A DNA stretch of 40,544 bases from a virus, in the IMG/VR virus record IMGVR_UViG_3300025869_001808, positions 1-40,544 of that record; one strand, given 5' to 3'. Numbering within the stretch: the stretch's first letter is position 1; each line of letters starts with the position of its first letter. The position numbers and the translations under genes are program-made. Under the pieces are notes generated by a model that saw nothing but the letters and a program-made list of their open reading frames with translations, did no database searches and was not told where the DNA came from. Below, in pieces: positions 4,457-11,898 of the stretch.

Positions 4457-6472
4457 ATGGAAAAATTTAAGTTGTCGGAAAATTTTATAAGTAAGTATAA
4501 AAGGAAAAAAGCTCCTTTTGGTTTTAATGGTTTGGGTGAATTAGTTTATATGAGAACCTACTCAAGAATCAAAGAAGATGGAAAGAATGAAAGATGGTGG
4601 GAAACTGTACAAAGAGTCGTAGAGGGAACTTACTCTATGCAAAAGAATCATATTGAATCACATCAATTAGGGTGGAATGCGTGGCAAGCTCAAAAAAGTG
4701 CTCAAGATATGTATGAGCGTATTTTTACTATGAAGTTTTTGCCCCCTGGACGCGGTCTGTGGGCTATGGGAACTCCCATCACAGAAAAAAAGGGATTATA
4801 CGCCGCCCTCAACAATTGTGCTTTTGTATCAACAAAAACAATCAAAGAAGATTACGCTAAACCTTTCTGTTTCCTTATGGACGCAAGTATGTTAGGTGTT
4901 GGCGTAGGATTCGATACAAAGGGCGCTGGTGAGATTATAGTAAAAGGGGTAGATAAGAACAAAGACGAACAAGTCTTTGAAATACCAGATACACGTGAGG
5001 GCTGGGTTGAGTCTCTTAGTCTTTTGTTGGAAAGTTACTTTCATGGAACTGCTTCTGTAAAATTTGATTATTCAAAAATAAGAGGTGCTGGTGAACCGAT
5101 AAGTGGATTCGGTGGTGTTGCTAGTGGATATGAACCACTTGAAGAAGTTCACATAGAAATATCAAAAATATTAGAAAAGAATAGTGGAGAACCAATTACA
5201 ATCACAACAATCGTAGATATAATGAATCTGATTGGTAAATGTGTTGTTGCAGGTAATGTTAGAAGAACTGCTGAGATTGTATTCGGAGACGCGGATTCAG
5301 AAGAGTATTTGGATTTGAAAAATTATAAAGTAAACCCACATAGGGAGCAATATGGATGGACATCTAATAATAGTATATTCGCAGAATTGGGTATGGATTA
5401 TACTGCCGCTGCCGAACGAATTGTGGATAATGGTGAGCCTGGATTTGCGTGGTTAGATAATATGAGACAATACTCTCGTATGAAAAATGGTGGTGATAAT
5501 AAAGACCACAGAGTTATGGGTGGTAATCCTTGTTTGGAACAATCATTAGAATCATATGAACTATGTTGCTTAGTAGAAACTTTTCCTGATAATCATGATG
5601 ACTTCGAAGATTATGCGAGAACTCTAAAGTATGCTTATCTTTATGCTAAAACAGTTACATTAGGAAGAACTCATTGGTCAGAAACTAATAGAGTTATGCT
5701 TCGTAATAGAAGAATTGGATGTAGTGTAAGTGGTGTTGCTCAATTCATTACTCATAGAGGTCTTGATGAACTAAAAAGTTGGCTAAATAATGGCTACGAT
5801 GTTATACAGGAATGGGATGGTATGTACTCTGATTGGTTTGCTGTACCAAAGTCAATCAAAACTACTTCAGTAAAACCATCAGGTACTGTTTCATTATTGG
5901 CTGGTGCTACGCCAGGTTTACATTATCCTGAAAGTAGATTTTATATAAGAAGAATAAGGGTTTCAAAACATTCAGAACTATTAGAACCTCTAAGAAAGGC
6001 TAACTACAAAGTAGAGCCCGCTTTTGGTTCAGAAGATACAACAATGGTTGTAGAAATACCTGTAGATGTAGGTGAGGGGATTAGGACAGCGGCTGAACTT
6101 TCGATTTGGGAACAATTCGGTTTAGCCGCTTTCTTACAAAGACACTGGGCTGATAATCAAGTAAGTTGTACAGTAACATTTGATCCAGAAACAGAAGCAA
6201 ATCAAATTGCTCCTTGTCTGAATTACTTTCAATATCATCTAAAAGGTATTAGTTTATTACCAAGGCATGATTATGGTGCTTATCAACAAATGCCGTATGA
6301 AGCAATAGATGAAAGTGAATATAATAAACAGATGGGTGGGTTAGGAAAGCTTTCATTTGGTGTGATACATAAAGAAGAAGCAAATGTAGAGAAATTCTGC
6401 GATGGTGATTTTTGTGATGTAGAAATAATACCAACAACTGGTGATAATGACGATCAAGAATATGCAAATTAA
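4457..6472 (+). CDS. nrdJ: Adenosylcobalamin-dependent ribonucleotide reductase (class II)
   Basis: Makes deoxynucleotides from ribonucleotides with a coenzyme-B12-derived radical, supplying phage DNA synthesis. The sequence matches the monomeric Lactobacillus-type triphosphate reductase: FLPPGRGLWAMGT (94-106), redox Cys121 in LNNCAFVS, GVGVGFDTKGAG, the NPCLEQ active site with radical Cys359 and Glu361, second redox cysteine Cys370 in ESYELCC, SVKPSGTVSLLAGATPGLHY (471-490), and a C-terminal relay pair Cys648/Cys653 in FCDGDFC. All catalytic residues are therefore present. At 671 residues it is somewhat shorter than the 739-residue model enzyme. T4 itself uses class I NrdAB; class II needs no oxygen or metal-loaded small subunit but needs cobalamin. 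The next gene is an outer-membrane TonB-dependent receptor, a family that includes cobalamin importers. Confidence 0.93.
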   Translation: MEKFKLSENFISKYKRKKAPFGFNGLGELVYMRTYSRIKEDGKNERWWETVQRVVEGTYSMQKNHIESHQLGWNAWQAQKSAQDMYERIFTMKFLPPGRGLWAMGTPITEKKGLYAALNNCAFVSTKTIKEDYAKPFCFLMDASMLGVGVGFDTKGAGEIIVKGVDKNKDEQVFEIPDTREGWVESLSLLLESYFHGTASVKFDYSKIRGAGEPISGFGGVASGYEPLEEVHIEISKILEKNSGEPITITTIVDIMNLIGKCVVAGNVRRTAEIVFGDADSEEYLDLKNYKVNPHREQYGWTSNNSIFAELGMDYTAAAERIVDNGEPGFAWLDNMRQYSRMKNGGDNKDHRVMGGNPCLEQSLESYELCCLVETFPDNHDDFEDYARTLKYAYLYAKTVTLGRTHWSETNRVMLRNRRIGCSVSGVAQFITHRGLDELKSWLNNGYDVIQEWDGMYSDWFAVPKSIKTTSVKPSGTVSLLAGATPGLHYPESRFYIRRIRVSKHSELLEPLRKANYKVEPAFGSEDTTMVVEIPVDVGEGIRTAAELSIWEQFGLAAFLQRHWADNQVSCTVTFDPETEANQIAPCLNYFQYHLKGISLLPRHDYGAYQQMPYEAIDESEYNKQMGGLGKLSFGVIHKEEANVEKFCDGDFCDVEIIPTTGDNDDQEYAN

Positions 6473-6544
6473 AATCGCGGACAGGCACGGTACACACCTG
6501 TATAAAAATGTGTCTATTCATAAACAAAAGCAAGGAGACAGATT
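6473..6544 (+). promoter_or_regulatory. Leader of the TonB-receptor gene, possible promoter
   Basis: A 72-nt spacer between reductase and receptor. ACAGG (6481-6485) and CCTGT (6497-6501) form a weak hairpin with an 11-nt loop and no following T-run, so it is not a convincing terminator. TATAAAAATG starts at 6501 and could be a -10 or a T4-late-like (TATAAATA) box. AAGGAG lies 7 nt before the ATG. It is too short for a cobalamin riboswitch and has no recognisable B12 box. Confidence 0.3.
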
Positions 6545-9274
6545 ATGACATATCGTAATCTCATCACATTTCTAATGTTATCAGTAAGCATTGTCTTTGG
6601 ACAAGCCGTAACTGGTTTCGTTGGAAGTGAAGAAGAACCACTTGTTGGAGCAAATGTAATAATAGAAGGTACAGACATTGGAGGCGTCACAGATGCTGAA
6701 GGTAAATTCGTAATCGAAACGGGTGCTGGTACTTTTGATATTACTGCTTCATACATCGGTTATATCTCATCAACTAAAAGTGTAGAAGTTGGAGATATAG
6801 TTGGGAGTGTTAGTTTCAATTTAGAAACTGATGTTGTTGCTCTCACAGCACTTGAGGTATTAGCTTCAAGAGCAGATGAAACAACACCTGTAGCTTACAC
6901 AACGATAGATAAAGCTGAAATGGAAATCAGACTTGGTAGTCAAGATATTCCAATGATTCTGAATACTACGCCAAGTGTATATGCTACAAATCAAGGTGGT
7001 GGTGCGGGTGATGCCCGTATCAATGTTCGTGGTTTCAACCAACGTAATGTTGCTGTTATGATTAACGGAGTTCCCCAGAATGATATGGAGAACGGATGGG
7101 TCTATTGGTCTAATTGGGATGGAGTAGGTGATGCTACTTCCTCAATTCAGATGCAAAGAGGACTATCAGCCGTCAATCTAGCAACACCATCGATTGGTGG
7201 AACAATGAATATCATTACCGATCCTTCATCTCACGAAAAAGGTGGGAAGTTCAAACAGGAAATCGGTGAGGGTGGGTTTCTAAAAACCACCTTGAATTAT
7301 AACTCAGGTCTAATAAATGATAAGTTAGCAATAAGTGGAACGATAGTTCGTAAAACTGGTGATGGTTTTATTGATGGAACTTGGACAGACGCTTGGGCTT
7401 ATTATTTAGGTACATCTTATGCTGTATCAGATAAACAAAGATTTGAGTTATATGCAATTGGTGCCCCACAAAGGCACGGACAAAACCTGTACAAACAGAA
7501 TATAGCAACTTACTCTCAAGACTTAGCTGGAAGTATCGATGGATACAATGATTCAGCTTATGTTGCGGGTGAGAAGTTTGAAACTGAAGCTGGTAGGTTT
7601 TATAACCAAAACGTAGCACCAATAAGTTCCGATTACAAAGGAAAACAGTATTGGTATATGTATGGAGATAAAACATCAGACAGATTTAGTCCCGACTTCC
7701 TAAATGAAAGAGAAAACTTCTTTCATAAACCACTTGTAAACCTAAACCATTTTTATGATATCAATGACGACATGAGACTAAGTTCTGTTGCTTATTGGTC
7801 TGGTGGTTCAGGTGGTGGAACTGGTACTTACGGAAGTGTCAGTAGAAAACCTGCAGTTGAGGGAGAAAGATGGTATGCATCTTCACCTTGGACTTGGGAT
7901 TGGGATGGAGAAATTGCACAGAACTCTGCTAATGTAGATTCTGCTTTCTCTGATACCGAAAATCGTTCTACTGGTATTCTTCGTAATTCAATCAATAGAC
8001 AAGATACTTATGGTTTAATCTCAAAGTTAAACTATGATGTATCAGACGCTCTTGAAATTCAAGTTGGTATTGATTGGAGAACTGCTGGTATAGAACACGC
8101 TAGAGAAGTTCGTGACTTACTTGGTGGAGACTACTATGTAGACTTTGCTGATAAGAATGCTCCTGATGGAAAAGTTGTTAGATTAGGTGATGAGATTGCT
8201 TATCACAATGAAACAACTGTCGATTGGTTCGGTGCTTTCTTACAAGGTAAGTATGATGCTGATAAGTTCAATCTTTATGGTATGGGTGGTATTTCAACCA
8301 TTGGTTATACATATCAAGACCATTTCTCCGTAGAGAAAGAACTTGTTGAAGCAGACGCTATAACATCTTTCCAAGTAAAAGGTGGTGGTAGATATAATCT
8401 TGACGATAGATTATCTGCATTCGCTAATCTTGGATATGTTCAGAAACCGCCAATCCTTGATAATGTAATTTCTTATGATGGAACTGTATCTACAGATCCT
8501 GATAATGAGAAGTTCACATCAATGGAAATCGGTGGTGAGTATAATAGTGGTTTAGTATCCATTAAGGGTAGTTACTACAATACTCAATGGAAAGATAGAA
8601 ACCTTACAAAATCTGTAAACACAGGTCAAGGTGATTCAGGTGATACTGATATCATTTATCTAACTGGTGTAAATCAAAGTCATAGTGGAGTAGAAGTAGA
8701 AACGAAAGTTGCTCTTCACGAAATGGTTGACTTAGATATAGTAGTTAGTGTTGGTGATTGGTATTTCGATGGAGACGCTAAAGGTGACTATACAGAGATG
8801 GAATATAACGATGACAACCAAATCATTGGACAAACATCTACAGAGTATGAATATGCTCTTAATGGTCTAATGGTTGGTGACATGCCACAAACTGCTTATG
8901 TTGGTGGATTAACTATTAAACCTATCGATGGATTAAGAATACAAGGTCTTTATAAGTGGTATGATAACCACTATTCAGATTGGAGTCCTGATTCTCGTGA
9001 GGTTGATGGTGATGCTGACAGAGCACAAGTATGGAAAACTCCATCTTATGGCAAGTTAGACTTACATCTATCTTACAAACTACCAGAGATTGGTGGTTTA
9101 GATATGACTCTTAGTGGTCATATGTTTAACGTTCTTGATGCAGTTTATGTTCAAGACGCTGTTGACAACAGTCAGTATAATGGGTTCGGTGACAAAGTTC
9201 ACGCTCCCCATAACGCTGAAGTATTTCTTGGTTCTCCAAGACACTTCAACTTAGGACTTGCTGTCAATTTCTAA
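6545..9274 (+). CDS. TonB-dependent outer-membrane receptor with CarboxypepD-regulatory-like domain
   Basis: A complete Gram-negative outer-membrane gated porin that would import a bound ligand with energy from host TonB-ExbBD. Signal peptide: positively charged MTYR, hydrophobic stretch to about 18, cleavage likely after FG (19/20). Residues about 21-95 form a carboxypeptidase-regulatory-like beta domain (GANVIIEGTDIGGVTDAEG), typical of Bacteroidota-type receptors. A plug domain follows at about 113-228 (INVRGFNQRNVAVMINGVP, then ATPSIGGTMNIIT). Residues 229-909 are the beta barrel, ending NLGLAVNF with a terminal Phe as outer-membrane proteins require. The plug and early barrel read like marine Bacteroidota/Marinimicrobia chromosomal receptors. 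Sampled lines are visibly more GC-rich than the glycan genes downstream (25/60 versus 19/60). The gene is separated on both sides and followed by a strong terminator, like a self-contained cargo cassette. Ligand unknown. Confidence 0.92.
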   Translation: MTYRNLITFLMLSVSIVFGQAVTGFVGSEEEPLVGANVIIEGTDIGGVTDAEGKFVIETGAGTFDITASYIGYISSTKSVEVGDIVGSVSFNLETDVVALTALEVLASRADETTPVAYTTIDKAEMEIRLGSQDIPMILNTTPSVYATNQGGGAGDARINVRGFNQRNVAVMINGVPQNDMENGWVYWSNWDGVGDATSSIQMQRGLSAVNLATPSIGGTMNIITDPSSHEKGGKFKQEIGEGGFLKTTLNYNSGLINDKLAISGTIVRKTGDGFIDGTWTDAWAYYLGTSYAVSDKQRFELYAIGAPQRHGQNLYKQNIATYSQDLAGSIDGYNDSAYVAGEKFETEAGRFYNQNVAPISSDYKGKQYWYMYGDKTSDRFSPDFLNERENFFHKPLVNLNHFYDINDDMRLSSVAYWSGGSGGGTGTYGSVSRKPAVEGERWYASSPWTWDWDGEIAQNSANVDSAFSDTENRSTGILRNSINRQDTYGLISKLNYDVSDALEIQVGIDWRTAGIEHAREVRDLLGGDYYVDFADKNAPDGKVVRLGDEIAYHNETTVDWFGAFLQGKYDADKFNLYGMGGISTIGYTYQDHFSVEKELVEADAITSFQVKGGGRYNLDDRLSAFANLGYVQKPPILDNVISYDGTVSTDPDNEKFTSMEIGGEYNSGLVSIKGSYYNTQWKDRNLTKSVNTGQGDSGDTDIIYLTGVNQSHSGVEVETKVALHEMVDLDIVVSVGDWYFDGDAKGDYTEMEYNDDNQIIGQTSTEYEYALNGLMVGDMPQTAYVGGLTIKPIDGLRIQGLYKWYDNHYSDWSPDSREVDGDADRAQVWKTPSYGKLDLHLSYKLPEIGGLDMTLSGHMFNVLDAVYVQDAVDNSQYNGFGDKVHAPHNAEVFLGSPRHFNLGLAVNF

Positions 9275-9282
9275 AGTAATTT

Positions 9283-9309
9283 GGGGGATTGAAATATATC
9301 CCCCTTTTT
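9283..9309 (+). terminator. Intrinsic terminator after the TonB receptor
   Basis: GGGGGAT (9283-9289) and ATCCCCC (9298-9304) form a perfect 7-bp stem with an 8-nt loop, followed directly by five T residues. It starts 9 nt after the receptor stop codon and separates it from the polymerase transcription unit. It is the only strong intrinsic terminator I see in the window. Confidence 0.88.
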
Positions 9310-9322
9310 ATTAAAAAAAGCC

Positions 9323-9352
9323 TTGACTTGTATAGGTTTTTGTTGTTATATT
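9323..9352 (+). promoter_or_regulatory. Sigma70-like promoter for the polymerase operon
   Basis: TTGACT (9323-9328) and TATATT (9347-9352) are spaced 18 bp, preceded by an A-tract (9313-9319) that may act as an UP element. The extended sequence TTGACTTGTATA plus TATATTTA, followed by ATAAATTGG near the expected transcript start, is repeated almost exactly at 15620-15663. The pair therefore looks like one phage promoter class, probably early and read by host RNA polymerase. Confidence 0.8.
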
Positions 9353-9381: not shown

Positions 9382-11898
9382 TTGTATCAAAACATATTTT
9401 ACGATAGAAGATTAAACACAATGCATGTTTGGGATGATAAATTCGGTCACCAAACATTTCGTTATAAGAAGTATGCATATACGAAAAGTAAAGCTGGAAC
9501 TTACATATCTCTACATGGAGATAGATTAAAGAGAATTACGAAGTGGGAAAAAGAACAATCAGATTTATTTGAGTCTGATGTAAATCCAGAAATAAGAGTG
9601 TTGGTAGATAACTATACCAACTCAGACGATGTATCTACCAACCACCGTACAATGATATTTGATATTGAGGTGGAAGTTACTGATGGGTTTCCTGATGTAG
9701 TAAAAGCTAATAATAAAATAACAGCTATAGGGTTTAACGATCCACGAACAGATGAATATTTTTGTTATGTACTAGACACTAATGATAAACTAAAATTAGG
9801 TAAGACTAGAACTACATTAAATGGTAATGAAATTGTAGTATCATTTGAAGATGAGTATGACTTACTTAATTCTTTTTTCATGAAATATTTAGAAATAAAA
9901 CCAACCATTTTAACAGGTTGGAATGTAGAGTTTTTTGATATACCATATCTTTATAATAGAGCTTGTCAAGTAGTCGGTAAGAATGTTGCGAATATTCTAT
10001 CACCAATTCAGAATATACAATGGAGTGATTTTGGTACTGGTAAATATAAGATAGCTGGAGTTAGTACATTAGACTATCTACAACTGTACAAAAAATTTAC
10101 CTTTAGTCAACGTTCATCATATCGATTAGATGCTATTGGTGATTTTGAAGTGGGTGAAAAGAAAGTAGCTTACGAGGGTACACTCAATGATTTATATGAA
10201 AATGATTTAGATAAGTTTGTTGAGTATAACTTACAAGATGTAAAACTAGTTAAAAAATTAGATGAGAAATTGGATTTCATAGAGATTGCACGAGGTATAG
10301 CTCATCTTGGTCATTGTCCATATGAAGATGTGTTTATGAGTTCTAGATATCTAGAGGGTGCAATACTAACATACCTCAAGAAGAAAGATATTGTTGCACC
10401 AAATAAACCTAAACGACCAAAAATGCTTTCCAATGATAAATTCGTAGGTGCTTATGTACAAGATCCACAAAGGGGTAAACATAATTGGGTATATGATTTA
10501 GATATTACATCCATGTATCCATCATGTATTATGTCTTTGAATATTTCACCAGAGACAAAGATAGGAAAAATTATTGGATGGAATCCACAAGAGTTTATAT
10601 CTAAAAGTAACAAAAAGACTTACACTATAGAACAAAGTGGTAAGGAGATGGGTAAGTTTACCGAGAAAGAATTAGGTAATTTCCTAGATGGTCGTGATGT
10701 AGGTGTTGCTTCCAACGGTGTTATGTACCGTTCAGATAAAGATGGGTTGTTACCAGCTCTATTACATAAATGGTTTGATGAAAGGGTTGAGTATAGAAAA
10801 CTATCTAAAAAATTTCATGAACAAGGTGAAAAAGATAAATCAAATTATTTTGATAGAAGACAATATCTACAAAAAATTCTACTAAATTCATTATATGGTG
10901 TATTGGGTTTACCATCATTTAGGTTTTATGATTTGGATAATGCTGAAGCAGTTACATACACAGGTCAAGCTTTAATTAAGTTTACTAAAAAGATATCTAA
11001 TAGTTTTTATAATAGAGAACTTGGTGATACTAAAGACCATTGTATTTATATTGATACGGATTCAGTTTTCTATTCAGCAACACCAATAGTAAAGAAAAGA
11101 TTTCCAACATTAAATATTAGAGATGAAGATAAGATGTCAAAGGCTATATTAGAAATAGCTGATGAGGTTCAGTTATATCTTAATAATAGTTACGATTACT
11201 TTGCTAAGAAGTTTTGTAACATAGACAAACATAGGTTTGATATTAAACAAGAGGTTATTGCAAAGAGTGGATTATTTGTTACCAAGAAAAGATATGGTTT
11301 AAAGATTATTAATGACAATGGTAAAAAGGTAAACAAGATGATGGTCAAGGGATTAGATACAGTTCGTTCTAGTTTCCCAACTGCTATGAGAGATATGTTA
11401 AGTAAACTCTTGGAAGATATTTTAATGGATGTTCCTAAAGACAAGTTAGATAAGTTTATTCTTAATTTCAAAAATAGTATGAAATTAATGGATGTAGATA
11501 AAATAGCTGTACCAACAGGTGTAAAGAACATAGAAAAGTATATTGATAAAGATAGGAAAGGATTTGCACCATATAAAAAAGGAACACCAATTCATGTTAA
11601 GTCTGCTATAGCTTATAATGACTTACTAAAACACTACAATCAAGACAAGAGATACGAAAAAATATCTAATGGTAGTAAGATAAAATGGGTGTATTTGAAG
11701 AATAATAGTCTAGGACTTGATACTGTTGCTTATAAGGGATATGAAGATCCACCAGAGATAATGAAGTTTATCAGAGACAATATAAATTCAAGTAAACTTT
11801 ATAAACAAGCTTTAGAAAAAAAGATAATGATGTTTTATGAAGCACTTCGTTGGGATGAACCAACAGATGCTACAAAAACAATAGAAAGATTTTTTTGA
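9382..11898 (+). CDS. 43: DNA polymerase, family B, T4 gp43-like
   Basis: Replicative polymerase with proofreading. Exonuclease motifs: FDIEVE (Exo I, D94/E96), TGWNVEFFDIPYL (Exo II, about 178-190), then an Exo III-type YNLQDVKLV at about 283. Polymerase motifs: YDLDITSMYPS at 371-381 (motif A), KILLNSLYG at 498-506 (motif B) and YIDTDSVF at 556-563 (motif C, D558 and D560). Length 838 is a little below T4 gp43 (898). The start is TTG immediately after an in-frame TAG, about 23 nt from the expected transcript start; the N-terminus MYQNIFYDRR fits gp43 homologues, and the next ATG (9421) would cut into conserved sequence. The ribosome-binding site is weak (GGGA about 12 nt away), which may limit expression. 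It is first in its transcription unit. Confidence 0.93.
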   Translation: MYQNIFYDRRLNTMHVWDDKFGHQTFRYKKYAYTKSKAGTYISLHGDRLKRITKWEKEQSDLFESDVNPEIRVLVDNYTNSDDVSTNHRTMIFDIEVEVTDGFPDVVKANNKITAIGFNDPRTDEYFCYVLDTNDKLKLGKTRTTLNGNEIVVSFEDEYDLLNSFFMKYLEIKPTILTGWNVEFFDIPYLYNRACQVVGKNVANILSPIQNIQWSDFGTGKYKIAGVSTLDYLQLYKKFTFSQRSSYRLDAIGDFEVGEKKVAYEGTLNDLYENDLDKFVEYNLQDVKLVKKLDEKLDFIEIARGIAHLGHCPYEDVFMSSRYLEGAILTYLKKKDIVAPNKPKRPKMLSNDKFVGAYVQDPQRGKHNWVYDLDITSMYPSCIMSLNISPETKIGKIIGWNPQEFISKSNKKTYTIEQSGKEMGKFTEKELGNFLDGRDVGVASNGVMYRSDKDGLLPALLHKWFDERVEYRKLSKKFHEQGEKDKSNYFDRRQYLQKILLNSLYGVLGLPSFRFYDLDNAEAVTYTGQALIKFTKKISNSFYNRELGDTKDHCIYIDTDSVFYSATPIVKKRFPTLNIRDEDKMSKAILEIADEVQLYLNNSYDYFAKKFCNIDKHRFDIKQEVIAKSGLFVTKKRYGLKIINDNGKKVNKMMVKGLDTVRSSFPTAMRDMLSKLLEDILMDVPKDKLDKFILNFKNSMKLMDVDKIAVPTGVKNIEKYIDKDRKGFAPYKKGTPIHVKSAIAYNDLLKHYNQDKRYEKISNGSKIKWVYLKNNSLGLDTVAYKGYEDPPEIMKFIRDNINSSKLYKQALEKKIMMFYEALRWDEPTDATKTIERFF

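Follow-up and report, generated by a model that had tools for sequence, protein, structure and literature searches.

Why does a T4-like phage carry a gene for a TonB-dependent outer-membrane receptor (TBDR) in the midst of its replication genes, and would the product serve as an importer, as a decoy or as neither? We addressed this question in a virus record from IMG/VR (40,544 bases), the whole of which is referred to below as the window, and in its relatives (Table 1). As the best explanation as a whole, we consider it probable, although by no means certain, that the phage lineage carries a host-derived importer under the control of a phage-specific RNA pseudoknot.

Table 1. Features of the TBDR locus in the window.
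Feature	Position	Strand	Basis
Class II (adenosylcobalamin-dependent) RNR, directly 5' of TBDR	4457..6472	+	TIGR02505, 365.5 bits (cut-off 340); PHROG 367
Leader RNA, H-type pseudoknot	6481..6514	+	81-row alignment; covariance model
Leader helix P1	6481-6485 with 6497-6501	+	alignment, ACAGG/CCUGU
Leader helix P2	6491-6496 with 6509-6514	+	alignment, GACACA/UGUGUC; A-rich loop between
Shine-Dalgarno AAGGAG	6532..6537	+	sequence
TonB-dependent outer-membrane receptor (TBDR)	6545..9274	+	ORF, Pfam, AlphaFold, Foldseek
Putative signal peptide, residues 1-20	6545..6604	+	sequence only; low-confidence part of AlphaFold model
CarboxypepD_reg-2 domain, residues 26-101	6620..6847	+	PF13715, E 4e-14
TonB-box region, residues 100-112, ALEVLASR core	6842..6880	+	83% phage-host identity
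Plug domain, residues 112-220	6878..7204	+	PF07715
Beta-barrel, residues 233-909, C-terminal Phe	7241..9271	+	AlphaFold secondary structure, 22 strands by reading
Intrinsic terminator, GGGGGA...TCCCCC stem then TTTTT	9283..9304	+	sequence
Promoter-like site before PolB	9323-9352	+	promoter scan; no commoner there than in shuffles
Family B DNA polymerase (PolB, gp43), 3' of TBDR	9382..11898	+	PF00136, E 7e-38; PHROG 262

The receptor gene and its recurrence in phages

The TBDR ORF starts with ATG, encodes 909 aa with no internal stops and ends with Phe, a C-terminal residue found in 165 of 166 full-length relatives. The N-terminus is hydrophobic, and its first 20 residues can be read as a putative signal peptide. 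Pfam analysis indicated a PF07715 Plug domain with 51.7 bits against a cut-off of 23.9 (E 1.4e-13), and the Pfam barrel model PF00593 gave no score on the window TBDR. In the AlphaFold model (pLDDT 78), the predicted strands were read by us as forming a barrel of 22 strands around a plug, and Foldseek with this model retrieved the TBDRs PqqU, Fiu, FhuA, FecA and BtuB, with E values down to 2.6e-37. The protein has, therefore, the marks of a TonB-dependent receptor, namely a Plug, a 22-strand barrel as modelled, a TonB box ahead of the plug and a C-terminal aromatic residue. As for narrower families, the SusC/RagA model TIGR04056 scored 49.2 bits against a curated cut-off of 368 and the hemoglobin/transferrin receptor model TIGR01786 54.6 bits against 324, both too low for assignment.

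The replication block of the window runs in the order gp32, UvsX, Exo, gp41, class II RNR, TBDR, PolB, gp45, gp44 and gp62, and thus includes all of gp32, UvsX, gp41, gp43, gp45, gp44 and gp62, by which we recognised a T4-like phage. The original prediction of a complete TBDR on such a phage was borne out by the intact ORF, Pfam, the modelled fold and these T4-type neighbours. In 56 of 71 phages, a terminator-like hairpin is present 3' of the TBDR and marks the end of the unit. Elsewhere in the window, positions 18178-40544 hold a long series of surface-sugar and lipid-like genes, including those for glycosyltransferases, two DegT aminotransferases, FabH-like, PhyH-like and SDR proteins and methyltransferases.

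A scan of IMG/VR with the TBDR protein indicated that 326 stretches encode a relative, the best 80 of which were 75-94% identical. Several queries together yielded 140 distinct viral loci, 15 of which end or break off upstream, leaving 125 readable ones; because these come from the best 80 matches per scan, the following counts are not unbiased frequencies. The same RNR was located directly 5' of the TBDR in 112 of the 125 loci, with a gap of 55-139 nt (median 84), and upstream with another gene intervening in seven; in the remaining six, the TBDR was in another context without the RNR. In this second context, a 280-aa membrane protein with a weak tetraspanin match precedes the TBDR (L391, L397, L403, L386, L425 and L445), an Hsp20 gene is located 5' of the membrane protein in most (confirmed by Pfam in L391), and genes that by eye appear to be for peptide deformylase and queuosine-type functions follow further on. 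Among the complete phage copies of the TBDR, short or broken ORFs were not found.

The RNR-PolB junction was empty (17-158 nt) in 31 sister phages and about 1 kb long in four more, and the empty junctions show that the TBDR is accessory, having been either gained or lost. Of the closest relatives by PolB, 21 had the TBDR and 46, about two thirds, did not, indicating that it is not essential. The same junction serves as a hotspot for cargo genes in many loci (L022:6561-7547, L014, L017, L072 and L075, among others), where glutamine synthetase (PF00120, E 8e-20) and thymidylate synthase genes were found and, by eye, those for dUTPase, glycosyltransferases and methyltransferases. Furthermore, tRNA genes are located directly 3' of the TBDR in L072 and L075, and a tRNA-Ala gene occupies the TBDR-less junction of L294.

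A conserved leader RNA before the receptor gene

When upstream regions were compared, a stretch of strong conservation emerged before phage TBDR genes only. In the window, this leader is about 34 nt long and located about 30 nt 5' of the TBDR start codon, outside the interval covered by the original prediction. Two interleaved helices could be formed in 81 distinct sequences, in which 98.3% of 891 cells were paired, and compensatory changes were observed in 6 of the 11 pairs, three per helix (e.g., C-G to U-A and A-U to U-A in P1, and A-U to G-C at two positions in P2), identifying the leader as an H-type pseudoknot. The covariation score was 0.198, compared with 0.094 (sd 0.006) in shuffled alignments and at most 0.070 with the partners slid; although the alignment was built without structure, the structure was read off the same sequences, and the slid control is, hence, somewhat flattering. 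The compensatory changes are independent of this. The outermost P2 pair of the window is a U-C mismatch common to L004 and L032, and the outermost P1 pair is absent in 12 rows of the alignment. An A-rich third loop is typical of H-type pseudoknots, and the loop residues GGCA and AAAA are invariant, which fits the binding of either a protein or a small molecule.

The leader was found before 86 of 87 phage TBDR genes, in 80 by a regular expression and in six more by eye, the one in L168 being degenerate. In the 80 that were measured, its 3' end was 24-39 nt (median 29) before the ATG, with a Shine-Dalgarno-like sequence in each. It was present in both the RNR-linked and the RNR-less contexts and, hence, travels with the TBDR gene. 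A covariance model, which matched the window at 6470-6517 with 55.4 bits, scored more than 58 bits in all 22 TBDR phages searched and matched none of 8 TBDR-less phages; a search of 584 kb of phage loci gave no further site above 13.4 bits, either at gp32 or at any other gene. An exact-pattern scan of IMG/VR found the leader in at least 120 stretches. In the 81 loci examined among the matches listed, the TBDR was directly 3' in 73 and the contig ended in 8, so that each of the 73 readable matches among those listed preceded a TBDR. No match was found in 637 kb around 45 bacterial orthologues, and INPHARED phages gave chance matches only. The 149 Marinimicrobia genomes searched gave only weak matches of at most 22 bits, with broken helices where alignments were checked, and these were also read as chance. 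The leader pseudoknot and the phage TBDR are thus shown here to be paired exclusively.

Two further candidate elements were examined in the upstream region. An AUG lies within P2, but a reading of the leader as an upstream ORF was rejected because neither frame nor length is conserved. Upstream of the leader, the motif TTC[AG]CAT(AC) is present in 59 of 167 phage rows within the 200 nt that precede the TBDR (e.g., L047:9917-9925), compared with a background of about 0.02 per 200 nt as measured in bacterial loci, and is absent from this region in the window. It is possibly a phage promoter; one shared with the hosts was rejected, because only 2 of 47 bacterial leaders have the motif.

With respect to its role, the leader may be an operator for a phage protein or an mRNA stabiliser, a reading to which we give somewhat less than an even chance and which would leave the importer role unchanged. 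Its placement and topology are as in the T4 gene 32 operator, a pseudoknot 67 nt upstream of the start codon that binds gp32 (PMC3014915), and the TBDR phages encode gp32. However, the leader stands only at the TBDR in the phage loci searched, and its identification with the gene 32 operator was rejected because the covariance model did not match the gene 32 leader. It is also possible, but only tentatively proposed, that the pseudoknot represents a new class of phage riboswitch, which would sense the imported nutrient or a metabolite derived from it and tune the phage-encoded transporter accordingly. A known riboswitch was rejected for the three leaders compared with Rfam, for which there was no relevant match even at E up to 10. 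If a riboswitch is indeed present, the virus would adjust the nutrient uptake of its host through RNA sensing during infection.

Origin, probable transport function and candidate ligand of the receptor

The best bacterial matches of the TBDR were 54-71% identical and almost all from Neomarinimicrobiota, in agreement with the Marinimicrobia-type relative that had been anticipated. Two closer matches, L082 (Flavobacteriales MAG) and L127 (Euryarchaeota MAG), were recognised as phage contigs by their phage replication genes. A tree, as had been proposed with the original prediction, recovered the phage copies as a clade of their own (SH-aLRT 100) adjoining the Marinimicrobia (SAR406) receptor, except that one MAG contig fell inside it; human-gut putative "phage" matches at 30% were represented by one sequence as outgroup only. 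The MAG contig, L083 (Marinimicrobia, 4266 bases), lacks the pseudoknot, and because of it the AU test rejected a phage-only clade (p 0.001). Therefore, exchange with a host lineage occurred at least once and was not simply one-way. L083 itself could represent a phage-to-host transfer or a donor lineage.

Between phages, the TBDR had a median pS of 0.61, which is near saturation, and a median dN/dS of 0.16, which is within the range of 0.08-0.20 for the replication genes tested. The phage copies are under purifying selection, and the near-saturated synonymous sites indicate that the acquisition is old; together with the phage clade, they speak against the recent acquisition that had been suggested. 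As a host-type gene retained in phages under purifying selection, the TBDR would qualify as an auxiliary metabolic gene. Its divergence tracked that of the RNR (pS r 0.71) more than that of PolB (r 0.46), so the RNR and the TBDR tend to move together.

To what use the receptor is put may be judged from where it is conserved. Phage-host identity was 0.83 in the TonB-box region and 0.89 in the plug, whereas the N-terminal domain (0.41) and the signal peptide (0.17) were less alike. In the extracellular loops, it was 0.60, the same as between hosts (0.60), these figures being approximate because the loop boundaries were read off the AlphaFold secondary structure. When positions were tested for fixed differences between phages and hosts, none passed. 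Conservation of the TonB box and plug, together with loops that have not diverged beyond the level seen between hosts, favours a working importer over a decoy.

TBDRs are common phage receptors, and Llp of T5 blocks FhuA. Accordingly, the phage could produce an excess of a receptor copy on the surface or on vesicles, where other phages would be titrated or resisted, and a lipoprotein encoded beside the TBDR in some phages could act as an additional blocker, as Llp does on FhuA. A gene for a putative lipoprotein of 166 aa (lipobox LLLFGC, no Pfam match) indeed lies directly 3' of the TBDR in L008 (10025-10522), with equivalents in L396, L428, L504, L435, L366 and L026, that is, in 7 phages, and was never found without the TBDR. 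FhuA-Llp and FhuA-pb5 complexes were also among the fold matches, although only since FhuA is a TBDR. We nevertheless regard such superinfection exclusion as rather unlikely: it requires neither TonB box nor plug function, yet both are the most conserved parts, the loops are not diversified relative to hosts, fixed phage-specific changes are absent, and the lipoprotein is present in few phages and absent from the window. Thus, among the functions originally offered, extra nutrient uptake is favoured, whereas the decoy or block is disfavoured by conservation in the TonB box and plug and by loops without extra divergence. The putative lipoprotein had only weak matches in Marinimicrobia genomes, and its structure model (pLDDT 43) was too poor for the fold to be read.

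With the importer as the favoured reading, the following mechanism may be proposed. In a T4-like phage lineage, a TonB-dependent importer of host origin is carried as an accessory gene and would be expressed in infection from its own translation signals. The product would be exported via the host Sec and Bam systems, be energised through the host TonB and increase the uptake of the nutrient normally imported by the Marinimicrobia-type orthologue. The pseudoknot 5' of the ribosome binding site would control the TBDR, probably by switching translation on binding a small molecule or a protein.

Cobalamin is a candidate for this nutrient because the neighbouring RNR is adenosylcobalamin-dependent, and the TBDR could accordingly feed that enzyme. 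The adjoining RNR in 112 of 125 loci is of class II (TIGR02505), the divergences of the two genes are correlated as stated above, and BtuB is among the fold matches. However, the arrangement of the two genes may be a mere matter of descent, there are many phages in which the RNR occurs but the TBDR does not, and in 6 loci no RNR adjoins the TBDR. Moreover, the sole cobalamin riboswitch is far from the TBDR orthologue in 7 of 10 Marinimicrobia genomes and precedes a different TBDR in 3 of 5 loci read (L369, L373 and L375), which the remaining loci do not contradict (a TBDR-like ORF is on one side in L371, and another ORF follows in L370). No cobalamin riboswitch was found near 8 close bacterial orthologues, nor were these marked as BtuB-type by a B12 gene cluster; the Marinimicrobia orthologues stand alone amid housekeeping genes, outside any recognisable uptake cluster. 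The fold matches, obtained with a predicted model, are generic and single out no ligand. Cobalamin is thus an unlikely ligand, and its import to supply the upstream RNR seems to us quite improbable.

Finally, the locus might be supposed to have arisen through faulty assembly or binning, or to be a piece of bacterial DNA in a phage contig, because TBDRs are mainly bacterial genes and IMG/VR contigs are metagenomic. This can practically be dismissed: the junction of RNR and TBDR was found, with gaps of 55-139 nt, in 112 distinct viral loci of many assemblies and is, therefore, no chimera of one contig, the leader is phage-only, and the phage copies are in their own clade; the worry about a chimera raised at the outset is thereby answered.

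The TBDR gene, and this gene alone, suggests Marinimicrobia as the host. The tRNA and tmRNA comparisons gave no confirmation of this part of the original prediction, as the phage tRNA-Ala pattern was present in none of 100 Marinimicrobia genomes and the phage tmRNA tag differs from the Marinimicrobia tags. A close relative of the phage RNR was found in none of 80 Marinimicrobia genomes in a search run without a positive control. The phage-borne tmRNA gene of L386 (8989-9429) has an unusually long predicted tag, GAEMGFDNYVEESVSDSQPTYAYTA, and the Marinimicrobia tmRNA genes (L573-L579) have very short ones of 9 residues, mostly ADYGYMAAA.

Relation to known receptors and RNA elements

As far as we found, phage-encoded TBDRs have so far received only brief mention, in marine megaphages, and in the open-access literature we found no account of the present TBDR family from T4-like phages, nor of phages of Marinimicrobia that bear it. 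A SusC TBDR of Mar_Mega_1 and LR745206 has been proposed as an accessory gene for uptake (Michniewski et al, 2021; PMC9723777). Like the present one, it is a phage-encoded TBDR in marine phages, but it is only about 25-29% identical over the plug region and comes from phages of a different group. The name SusC is that of the authors, whereas the window TBDR scores far below the SusC model, and no leader RNA is described in their passage on the megaphage receptor (PMC9723777). In a viral structure library, the sole full-length TBDR match was likewise a SusC of an uncultured marine phage. FhuA, Fiu, FecA, PqqU and BtuB share the plug-in-barrel fold with the modelled phage TBDR; they are, however, only 12-14% identical to it, and the phage TBDR has an extra N-terminal CarboxypepD_reg domain and, by reading of the model, apparently larger extracellular loops.

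The single-copy TBDRs of Marinimicrobia (SAR406) are of the same family, being 54-68% identical along their whole length with a nearly identical plug and TonB box, but differ from the phage ones in standing alone in housekeeping surroundings and in lacking the pseudoknot. In many T4-like phages of the ocean, the TBDR is thus conserved as an accessory gene and provides a link to a phylum that is for the most part uncultured; finding what the leader RNA binds may reveal what the TBDR imports and, hence, the nutrient by which marine phage production is limited.

Small H-type pseudoknot riboswitches include preQ1-I, SAM-II, NAD-II and guanidine-III. The TBDR leader resembles these in size class, in its A-rich third loop and in its place before a transporter gene, whereas no Rfam family matched the three leaders compared. 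It also resembles the gene 32 operator of T4, T2 and RB69, as both are H-type pseudoknots in the mRNA leader of a T4-type phage, a short way before the start codon. The two differ in that the gene 32 operator controls an ssDNA-binding protein and the TBDR leader is present only before a transporter gene, and their sequences, judged without alignment, are apparently unrelated. According to a 2010 review, the gene 32 operator may be the sole viral pseudoknot involved in translational autoregulation (PMC3014915), and, given this remark, a second phage gene led by a pseudoknot would be notable in itself.
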